Position numbers and translations under genes: made by a program
The notes under the pieces: generated by a model
What the model saw: the letters and a program-made list of their open reading frames with translations, nothing else
What the model was told of the DNA's origin: nothing
Databases searched by the model: none
Source: Sulfurovum sp. TSL6
GTDB lineage: Bacteria > Campylobacterota > Campylobacteria > Campylobacterales > Sulfurovaceae
Assembly: GCF_019972115.1 (NCBI RefSeq)
Contig: NZ_BPFJ01000002.1
Span: forward strand, 496,001 to 560,000
Length of the DNA: 64,000 nucleotides
Direction of reading: 5' to 3'
In this document: positions 60,088 to 63,023 of the stretch, one piece after another
Layout of the letters: every line of letters starts with the position of its first letter
How positions within the stretch are numbered: position 1 is the stretch's first letter

Positions 60088-60219
60088 TTAGGACTTGGTT
60101 GTAAAGAGGATCAAATAAAAACCTGAAAAAGAAAGCAAATGATACGCTTCATTTACCAATCTAGCTTTTTCTATCATAGCCTCTGGTTGAAATTCAGGTC
60201 TTATTCCGTGAATTTTCAT
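60088..60219 (-). CDS. Small open frame, possible remnant
   Basis: A 43-codon frame beginning MKIHGIRPEFQPEAMIEKAR and ending in FTTKS. GGGGGAG lies 11 bases before the ATG. It has no family I recognise. It could be a small protein or the start of a gene that was cut off; it lies upstream of the poly-Glu gene on the same strand. Confidence 0.35.
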   Translation of the reverse strand: MKIHGIRPEFQPEAMIEKARLVNEAYHLLSFSGFYLILFTTKS

Positions 60220-60569: not shown

Positions 60570-61583
60570 TTAAGCAGTAACAATAACGTTAGTTTTAACA
60601 GTGCCTAATACTTCCATAGTAATCCAATCTTTAATATCACAAGTGATAATGTATTCACCCGGCTCAGTTGGTTCAAAAATCACATCATAACGTTCAGCTG
60701 AAACAGCATCAAGAGATGTTACTTGAATCGGATTTGGTAAATTACGACCATCTGAAATATGCACAGTACCCGTTAAGCCACCAAAATCAATATGTTGAGG
60801 ATGGTAACCTGCACAGATATAACGAGCTAACAGTTTCTCACCTACTTGTACCGTAGCTGAAATTGGTGCTGTATTCATAGCTGAAGTACCTGTACCATCA
60901 ACACCTGTAATAACAAAGTAGTCTGGTTCAAGTCTGTTCAGTCCTACATCTTCACCACAAGTACCAGCATCCCACGCAAGCGTATGCCATCTTGAATCAA
61001 TCTCATCCACAACCCAAAATGCTTCCACATCATATGTTACTGCAGGATTACCGCCTGTAGCTGATACTAAAGTACCCGGACCTTCTGGCGGGTCAACGAT
61101 AAGTGCACCATACATACCCATTTCAGCATGTAATACCGTATTGGTATGACAGTGATAAAAATAGGTACCTGGGTGCATTGGACGCCATTGATAAGTGTAT
61201 GTACCATCAACGTCCCAAGTAATATGACCAACTCCATCAGAGTGATCTGCTGGCTCAATACCATGATGGTGTATGGTGTGTAACCACATACCGCCTTGTA
61301 CATTTAGTACTGAATGTACAATTGTTCCTGCATTAATACGCATTGGTGGTGAAGGAAAAGTTCCTGCACCCATACCACCACCCATGCCGCCATCACTACC
61401 AAAGCCCCACATGTTGATGGTTGTTCCATCATCCATGGTGATTGGAATTTGCATATCAATATTAAGGTTATAAGTCACATCTGCTGTTACGATTCCCGGT
61501 GTAGCCGGTGATGCTGGATAGAAATAACATCCACTACCCATTCCGCCGCCGCCACCCATGCCGCCGCCTCCATTCATTCCCAT
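60570..61583 (-). CDS. Multicopper oxidase-like two-cupredoxin protein (B), no signal peptide
   Basis: A 337-residue protein of two cupredoxin domains. Domain 1 has HTIHHHGIEP (His102, 105, 106, 107) and YFYHCHTNTVLHAEMGM: His144-Cys145-His146, His152 and Met157, a type-1 copper Cys with the paired His of a trinuclear site. Domain 2 keeps only YHPQHIDFGG (His261, His264) and TCDIKDW (Cys315), without the canonical HCH. The N-terminus is Gly/Met-rich (MGMNGGGGMGGGGGMGS), with a second such loop at 62-74, but there is no signal peptide. It follows its partner by 11 bases with its own AAGGAG. Confidence 0.8.
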   Translation of the reverse strand: MGMNGGGGMGGGGGMGSGCYFYPASPATPGIVTADVTYNLNIDMQIPITMDDGTTINMWGFGSDGGMGGGMGAGTFPSPPMRINAGTIVHSVLNVQGGMWLHTIHHHGIEPADHSDGVGHITWDVDGTYTYQWRPMHPGTYFYHCHTNTVLHAEMGMYGALIVDPPEGPGTLVSATGGNPAVTYDVEAFWVVDEIDSRWHTLAWDAGTCGEDVGLNRLEPDYFVITGVDGTGTSAMNTAPISATVQVGEKLLARYICAGYHPQHIDFGGLTGTVHISDGRNLPNPIQVTSLDAVSAERYDVIFEPTEPGEYIITCDIKDWITMEVLGTVKTNVIVTA

Positions 61584-61594
61584 ATCATTCTCCT

Positions 61595-62596
61595 TTATTC
61601 AAAATAGATGTCGGTCATTGAACCGAACATATAGAAGCCGCCGCCGGCAGTCTGAGACATCTCTGTGTGTAAGTGCATTGGATAGGTACCTGTACTTACC
61701 GGAGGCCATGCATCCGGTGGTGTTTCAAATGGAAAAATCACATCTATCTGTCCACCATTCGCATCCAATGGAATAACATCTTTCCTCCATACATCCGGAC
61801 AAACTACACCATTGCTTGTTAACCACTCCATATGATTTGCATGGGTATGTACTGCTTGTTGACACATACCTGCGTTTATCACACGAACCAATGTTCTATC
61901 ACCAATATGCCCATGTAGTGCTGAACGTGGATCTGCCATGGCATCTAGATTGGGGTCATGAGAACCTGGTGCTCCTGGAGGACGTCCACCCAGACCATTG
62001 ATTGTAAAATAACGTGGTACAAATGGTGTTGTTGGTGTTTGACCATTTTGTACTGCATTATTCCAAACTGGGTCTATATCATTAAATACCCAAAATTGTT
62101 GTTGCACAAATGTTAAACTACCTGGGTAAAGTTCATTAGCACTATCTCTTGGCATAATTGCCATACCACCATGTAAACCACATAAACGGTTATAAGGAGC
62201 ATTGAGCTTATCATAATACATAAATGAACCAGATCTTGTTGCAATAAAACTAAGGTCCTTAGTTGTACCACCTGCAATTATTCCACTATCCACAATACCA
62301 TCAATCACAAAACTGTGTGGTGTTTGCAATGTATTCACGATAGTTATCTCAACTGTATCGCCTTCTTGAACTATAAATGACTCACCTGGGATATTAAGTG
62401 TCGATGGCGAGCTGCTATACCCCATAAAATATACATCTTCGCCAGTCATTTGAGTGATGAACCCTTCTGTTATATAAAGGGTTCTGTTTATTGTTGCCGC
62501 CTGAGCCGATGTGGCCCATACGGTGAGACTTGAGCCTGCGATTGCAGTACGTGCAAAACTGGCCATGCTAAACTTTAAAAAGTTTCTGCGCTTCAT
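61595..62596 (-). CDS. Multicopper oxidase-like two-cupredoxin protein (A), Tat-exported
   Basis: A 333-residue protein with a twin-arginine signal (KRRNFLKFSMASFA, cleavage near AQA-A at 31-34). Domain 1 has an amicyanin-like type-1 copper set: His94 (TPHSF), Cys139, His142 and Met145 (CGLHGGM). Domain 2 keeps HTH (His250/His252) and HLH (His308/His310), the pairs that supply half of a trinuclear centre, with Leu where a type-1 Cys would be. It is the first gene of the pair, with AAGGAG before the ATG. Nitrite reductase-like folding is an alternative, but the ligand pattern is unlike NirK. Confidence 0.8.
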   Translation of the reverse strand: MKRRNFLKFSMASFARTAIAGSSLTVWATSAQAATINRTLYITEGFITQMTGEDVYFMGYSSSPSTLNIPGESFIVQEGDTVEITIVNTLQTPHSFVIDGIVDSGIIAGGTTKDLSFIATRSGSFMYYDKLNAPYNRLCGLHGGMAIMPRDSANELYPGSLTFVQQQFWVFNDIDPVWNNAVQNGQTPTTPFVPRYFTINGLGGRPPGAPGSHDPNLDAMADPRSALHGHIGDRTLVRVINAGMCQQAVHTHANHMEWLTSNGVVCPDVWRKDVIPLDANGGQIDVIFPFETPPDAWPPVSTGTYPMHLHTEMSQTAGGGFYMFGSMTDIYFE

Positions 62597-62946: not shown

Positions 62947-63023
62947 TGGTACACCCATCAGGATTCGAACCTGAGACCTTCGGTACCGCAAACCGATGCT
63001 CTATCCAGCTGAGCTATGAGTGC
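62947..63023 (-). tRNA. tRNA-Arg (GCG)
   Basis: A 77-nt cloverleaf with encoded CCA. Acceptor GCACTCA/TGGGTGT with wobble pairs at 1-72 and 5-68, D-stem GCTC/GAGC, anticodon stem TCGGT/ACCGA around TTGCGGT (anticodon GCG), T-stem TCAGG/CCTGA. A at the D-loop (GGATA) fits arginine identity. Confidence 0.93.

Follow-up and report, generated by a model that had tools for sequence, protein, structure and literature searches.

Two adjacent genes, here called A and B, very probably encode the obligate subunits of a single heteromeric multicopper oxidase that is co-exported through the Tat pathway. They lie in the analysed window, i.e., the whole stretch of 64,000 nucleotides from Sulfurovum sp. TSL6. 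This estimate leaves the physiological role of the enzyme aside. The observations made here concern gene pairing, complementary loss of copper ligands, the pattern of export signals and the gene context.

Both genes are intact and are encoded on the minus strand, with A (61595..62596, 333 aa) upstream and B (60570..61583, 337 aa) 11 bp further on, at the coordinates given in an initial annotation of this DNA. The TAA stop codon of A is followed by an 11-bp gap (61584..61594, minus strand), which contains AGGAG as a ribosome-binding-like sequence, and then by the ATG of B. Both products are composed of multicopper-oxidase/cupredoxin domains (Pfam Cu-oxidase domains), and each half also gave matches at the level of the fold. 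Judged from sequence, domain matches and alignment, A is a Tat-type two-domain cupredoxin subunit with the domain-2 half of a trinuclear copper site, and B is a signal-less two-domain cupredoxin subunit with a type-1 copper set and the domain-1 half. In the alignments, the trinuclear-site ligands of A are His250-x-His252 (61841..61849, minus) and His308-x-His310 (61667..61675, minus). Those of B comprise His105 and His107, next to the type-1 ligand His102 (61263..61280, minus), and the pair His144/His146 within His144-Cys145-His146...His152...Met157 (61113..61154, minus), a segment that also supplies the type-1 Cys, His and Met. The residues initially named (A His250/252 and 308/310; B His105/107, His144/146 and Cys145) were all found as given.

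In order to compare the ligands, 57 A-B pairs were aligned with homologous one-gene type-C enzymes. All four domain-2 trinuclear His were kept in 56 of the 57 A proteins (one A, L142, apparently lacks its last His pair, with a frame error being possible), and at most one of the four domain-1 trinuclear His was found in the A protein of any pair. The four domain-1 His and the type-1 His-Cys-His-Met set of B were complete in 57/57, and at most one of the four domain-2 trinuclear His was present in B, with one B ending at a contig end before domain 2. In the one-gene two-domain reference oxidase, all eight trinuclear positions are occupied by His. In the close family, the trinuclear His of A were invariant in 36–37 of 37 rows (the remainder being gaps) and the B ligands in 35 of 35; furthermore, the split was constant across clades that are only about 30% identical. 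Since the ligands are invariant in the close family and nearly so in the wide one, this pattern is not due to chance, and the complementary halves first described for the window alone are fixed across the 57 aligned pairs. In the phylogenetic tree, A rows and B rows formed two separate clades (support 95/95 for A and 100/99 for B), both of which contain Proteobacteria and a divergent Sulfurimonas pair; the split between A and B therefore predates these lineages.

A second type-1 set, consisting of His94, Cys139, His142 and Met145, had initially been proposed for A. The letters are present, but the site is not supported by homologues. The column of Cys139 contains V (15), L (14), C (3) and T (2), with Cys in 3 of 36 sequences, all three of the Sulfurimonas type. 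Moreover, the type-1 Cys column, at which A has Asp, lies ten columns upstream of Cys139, and the domain-1 type-1 ligands of B are missing from A in the alignment. A second electron-entry site in A was therefore rejected, as Cys139 is both unconserved and off the type-1 position.

When species genomes were scanned, 35 loci with A (53–76% identity) were found, hosted by Sulfurimonas as well as by many Gamma- and Betaproteobacteria, of which several belong to sulfur-oxidising groups. B (52–81% identity) was located immediately 3' of A at all loci with a continuing contig; in two loci (L041 and L052) the contig stops inside B, the start of which is still readable, and one locus (L053) carries two A-B pairs in tandem. 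Among 369 sampled genomes from the class of G064, 23 contained A, 23 contained B and 22 contained both, and in the single A-only genome (G863) as well as in the single B-only genome (G855) the gene lies at a contig end. The conserved A-B gene pairs for which the initial annotation had proposed a search were thus found wherever the contig continues, with at least 57 pairs sampled, and an occurrence of B without A, which it had listed as counter-evidence, came down to that one contig end. As far as sequence can test it, its central idea of a heteromeric oxidase survives the refuting observations that it had itself set out. Within the order to which the window belongs, A was detected at E 1e-20 or better in only two of 249 genomes, and its distribution there is therefore patchy.

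Several more distant arrangements were also recorded. A divergent A-B pair (L097:486-2382, minus strand; 29–33% identity) with the same signatures is situated behind a response regulator in another genome of the window's genus. On an Arthrobacter plasmid (L100:3719-6066, plus strand), A reads on without a frame shift into the first part of B, after which the frame breaks, a junction that suggests a natural fusion, and Nramp and metal-dependent regulator genes are close by. Two three-gene relatives with Sec-like N-termini (L102:1895-6456, plus strand; L103:1-6348, minus strand) encode a two-domain protein with type-1 ligands and the domain-1 half, a two-domain protein with the domain-2 half and a larger protein with neither; they may represent a split six-domain ring. 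In L147:702-3152 (minus strand), A-type domains form the end of a very long open frame, whose repeated segments look Cna-like.

Export signals were assessed by eye and by hydrophobicity rather than with a trained predictor. The N-terminus of A, MKRRNFLKF, is of the twin-arginine type (signal MKRRNFLKF...AQA, about residues 1–33; 62498..62596, minus), and the RR-x-F motif was present in 35 of 35 close A homologues. B begins with MGMNGGGGMGG and has no hydrophobic signal; its Gly/Met-rich residues 1–18 (61530..61583, minus) take up the stretch in which a signal peptide would be expected, and most close homologues have similar N-termini of low hydrophobicity that are rich in Gly and mostly also in Met, Ser or Thr. 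Tracing the close B frames back to the preceding stop revealed no signal, if stretches lying over A in a different frame are set aside. A twin-arginine signal on A and none on B, as claimed at the outset, was hence borne out in the window and in the close family. Clades II and III also combine a Tat-type A with a signal-less B. In clade IV (L136, L145 and L146), a Sec-type A is accompanied by a B that likewise has a Sec-type signal (the B of L147 is also signal-bearing, the start of its A lying out of view), and in clade IIIb (L141 and L143) A has the RR pair while B apparently has a separate Tat-lipoprotein signal. Signal-less B was seen only beside Tat-type A, wherever the start of A was readable, which supports co-export; clade IIIb indicates that co-export is not universal. 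The earlier proposal that B hitchhikes on the Tat signal of A fits clades I–III and needs qualifying for the divergent clades IV and IIIb, where B has its own signal. When the tree was rooted on type-C enzymes, the B-like proteins of the three-gene relatives, followed by clade IV B, branched off near the base (94/95, with the fork left open), which suggests, short of proof, that loss of the B signal is a derived state. Tat hitch-hiking is established for HybOC and PaoABC in the passages of PMC4273604 devoted to them; like A-B, they have a twin-arginine signal on one partner and none on the other, but the cofactors of such hitch-hikers are Fe-S, Ni, FAD or Mo, with no copper oxidase among the examples given in those passages. 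Cys19 (61527..61529, minus) and Cys209 (60957..60959, minus) of B, possible disulfide partners according to the alignments, are invariant in close B proteins and both missing from the divergent B of L097, a joint pattern that would be expected for a disulfide of an exported protein.

Because the 11-bp gap in the window puts B in a different frame from A, structure models were built for the A-B read-through chains of L039 and L037, in which A and B share a frame, with the A stop read as Gln. These fused models reached pLDDT values of 84.9 and 85.7, respectively, and a pTM of 0.87, obtained from shallow alignments (55 and 45 rows) with few paired rows and from an artificial chain that itself imposes proximity of the two halves. 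The best whole-length Foldseek matches of both were ceruloplasmin, MnxG and factor V/VIII, the Z-ranked matches of L037 being to single halves only, and 502 of 641 residues of the L039 model aligned with factor V residues 1–656 at 4.3 Å. Within the limit set by the fusion, the models are consistent with two-domain units lying side by side in the style of ceruloplasmin, factor V or MnxG. They also fit domain 2 of A adjoining domain 1 of B, the type of interface at which two-domain enzymes hold the trinuclear centre, the related one-gene enzymes being homotrimers (PMC13151041). The B half of the model fitted the two-domain oxidase 3g5w best (Z 24.4), with which domain 1 of B aligns ligand for ligand.

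From these results we infer a complex that would be assembled, loaded with copper, exported and active as follows. Domain 2 of A (His250, 252, 308 and 310) would pack on domain 1 of B (His105, 107, 144 and 146), and the two would hold one trinuclear copper centre between them. Electrons from the substrate would enter at the type-1 copper of B (His102, Cys145, His152 and Met157) and, by analogy with the multicopper-oxidase family, would pass through the His-Cys-His bridge to the trinuclear centre, where O2 would be reduced to water. The two remaining domains, which have lost their ligands, would be structural. The signal-less B would bind A while still in the cytoplasm, and the twin-arginine signal of A would carry it out. 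A point against this picture is that, in the three-fold geometry of known two-domain enzymes, one place is unfilled by A and B; correspondingly, a ceruloplasmin-like ring would have a third two-domain place beyond them.

A and B score well short of all curated cut-offs for oxidases and nitrite reductases. Membership in the CopA/CueO three-domain cuprous oxidases was rejected on the scores for TIGR01480 (54.9 and 21.7 bits for A and B, respectively, vs. 478.95) and for the CueO model (23.3 and 15.2 vs. 525); CopA/PcoA and CueO resemble A-B in their Tat-type signal, in the multicopper chemistry predicted for A-B and in their copper-resistance context, but are three-domain single chains. The type-C two-domain oxidases (3g5w from Nitrosomonas europaea, and 2zwn) also have two cupredoxin domains per chain and type-1 copper in domain 1, the position it would have in B, with an interchain domain 1/domain 2 trinuclear centre like that proposed here. 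However, they are homotrimers of one gene product with all eight His, whereas the halves of A-B are in two genes, each chain being degenerate; since the one-gene definition of that family does not apply, A-B was filed as a heteromeric variant. In the six-domain oxidases (ceruloplasmin, MnxG and bacterial members; PMC3600357), two-domain units form a ring in which a single trinuclear site has been kept and the others have been lost. In the bacterial ones it lies between domains 2 and 3, matching A domain 2/B domain 1 (PMC3600357). They are nevertheless single polypeptides, unlike the two genes and four domains of A-B, and their type-1 site is reported in domain 2 in bacterial members rather than in the third domain in order, domain 1 of B. 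Certain fungal laccases, termed heterodimeric copper oxidases, come close to A-B in name; in those, the large subunit alone carries all coppers.

Two rival readings concern the nature of the proteins. A and B could be separate homo-oligomeric cupredoxins that share an operon, B being a type-1 electron carrier and A a copper-binding or structural protein, as each retains a coherent sub-site and the related one-gene enzymes are homotrimers (PMC13151041). We regard this as improbable, because all eight trinuclear ligands are invariant although each half would be without a partner, B retains trinuclear His for which a simple type-1 carrier would have no use, and the gene pairing is strict. Even less credible is a relative of copper nitrite reductase instead of an oxidase, a reading prompted by NirK among the PDB and NCBIfam matches of A and B. 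NirK has a single type-2 copper, with two ligand His in one domain and a third supplied by the neighbour, whereas A and B have four plus four invariant His, with His flanking the type-1 Cys on both sides. Together with TIGR02376 (NirK) scores of 35.2 and 29.5 bits against a cut-off of 296.3, these eight conserved trinuclear His led us to reject membership in this family. A third reading concerns export only and is unlikely, if less so than the other two: B might leave by a hidden signal, by non-classical export or with another partner. The Sec-type or apparent Tat-lipoprotein signals on B of divergent relatives speak for such a route; against it, close B frames hold no signal-like stretch other than those overlapping the A coding sequence, and every signal-less B examined adjoins a Tat-type A where the start of A is readable.

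With regard to the role of the proposed heteromeric enzyme, which is the least certain step, copper detoxification by periplasmic Cu(I) oxidation beside CusA/CusB-type efflux appears most likely. It is favoured by the CusA/CzcA- or CusB-type genes near 14 of the 35 loci; in several betaproteobacterial loci the order is A-B-CusB-CusA in the same orientation, and other arrangements with Cus genes occur elsewhere. No Cus genes were found nearby in 21 of the 35 loci or near A-B in the window, the genome of which has further CusA/CzcA-type genes, as well as further long multicopper-oxidase frames, at other places. Oxidation of Fe, Mn or an organic substrate is a serious contender, to which we assign somewhat under an even chance. 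The limited share of loci with Cus genes would suit it, as would the Nramp genes near Arthrobacter-type relatives and the resemblance of the three-gene relatives (L102/L103) to Sideroxydans Slit_1816-1818, the expression of which is higher on magnetite (PMC12016527). That cluster likewise consists of adjacent cupredoxin genes, one without oxidase motifs, but differs from A-B in having three genes and a predicted extracellular location, and the passages of PMC12016527 that treat it contain no split-site proposal. The co-oriented A-B-CusB-CusA loci, together with Met-rich segments in B that would suit Cu(I), weigh on the side of copper.

Taken more broadly, and with a probability that we place only slightly above one half, A-B would belong to an unrecognised, widespread class of multicopper oxidases that are obligate heteromers. 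Two gene products (two of three in the three-gene relatives) would together make up one trinuclear centre, and export of the assembly would have switched between Sec, with a signal on each subunit, and Tat, with one signal for both. Such enzymes would represent a surviving stage between two-domain enzymes that form homotrimers and six-domain chains of the ceruloplasmin type. If this is true, an active site normally made from identical subunits has been split between diverged subunits through complementary loss, the kind of step proposed en route to ceruloplasmin and the clotting factors V and VIII. In addition, the natural Sec/Tat comparison series would make the role of Tat in the export of pre-assembled copper enzymes directly testable, and a likely copper-stress oxidase of sulfur- and metal-oxidising bacteria would have been recognised where sequence models show only two weak oxidase-domain proteins. 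A search of the open-licence literature returned no descriptions of split, heteromeric or heterodimeric multicopper oxidases under those names.

In the window, A-B lies between a tRNA-Arg(gcg) gene and an acidic-protein gene that adjoins gmk. In L108, from the same genus, the acidic-protein gene follows the tRNA-Arg(gcg) gene 56 bp on with no A-B between them, and A-B was therefore probably gained at this site in the window's lineage. The 3' side of tRNA-Arg(gcg) (window 62947-63023, minus strand) looks like an insertion spot, being empty in L108 and occupied by another gene in L107. In a Sulfurimonas locus (L037:1088-2179, minus strand), integrase-like and toxin-antitoxin-like genes occur within 4–5 kb of A-B. 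Finally, a small open frame (MKIHGIRPEFQPEAMIEKARL...), preceded by a purine-rich site, was noted between B and the acidic-protein gene (window 60092-60219, minus strand).
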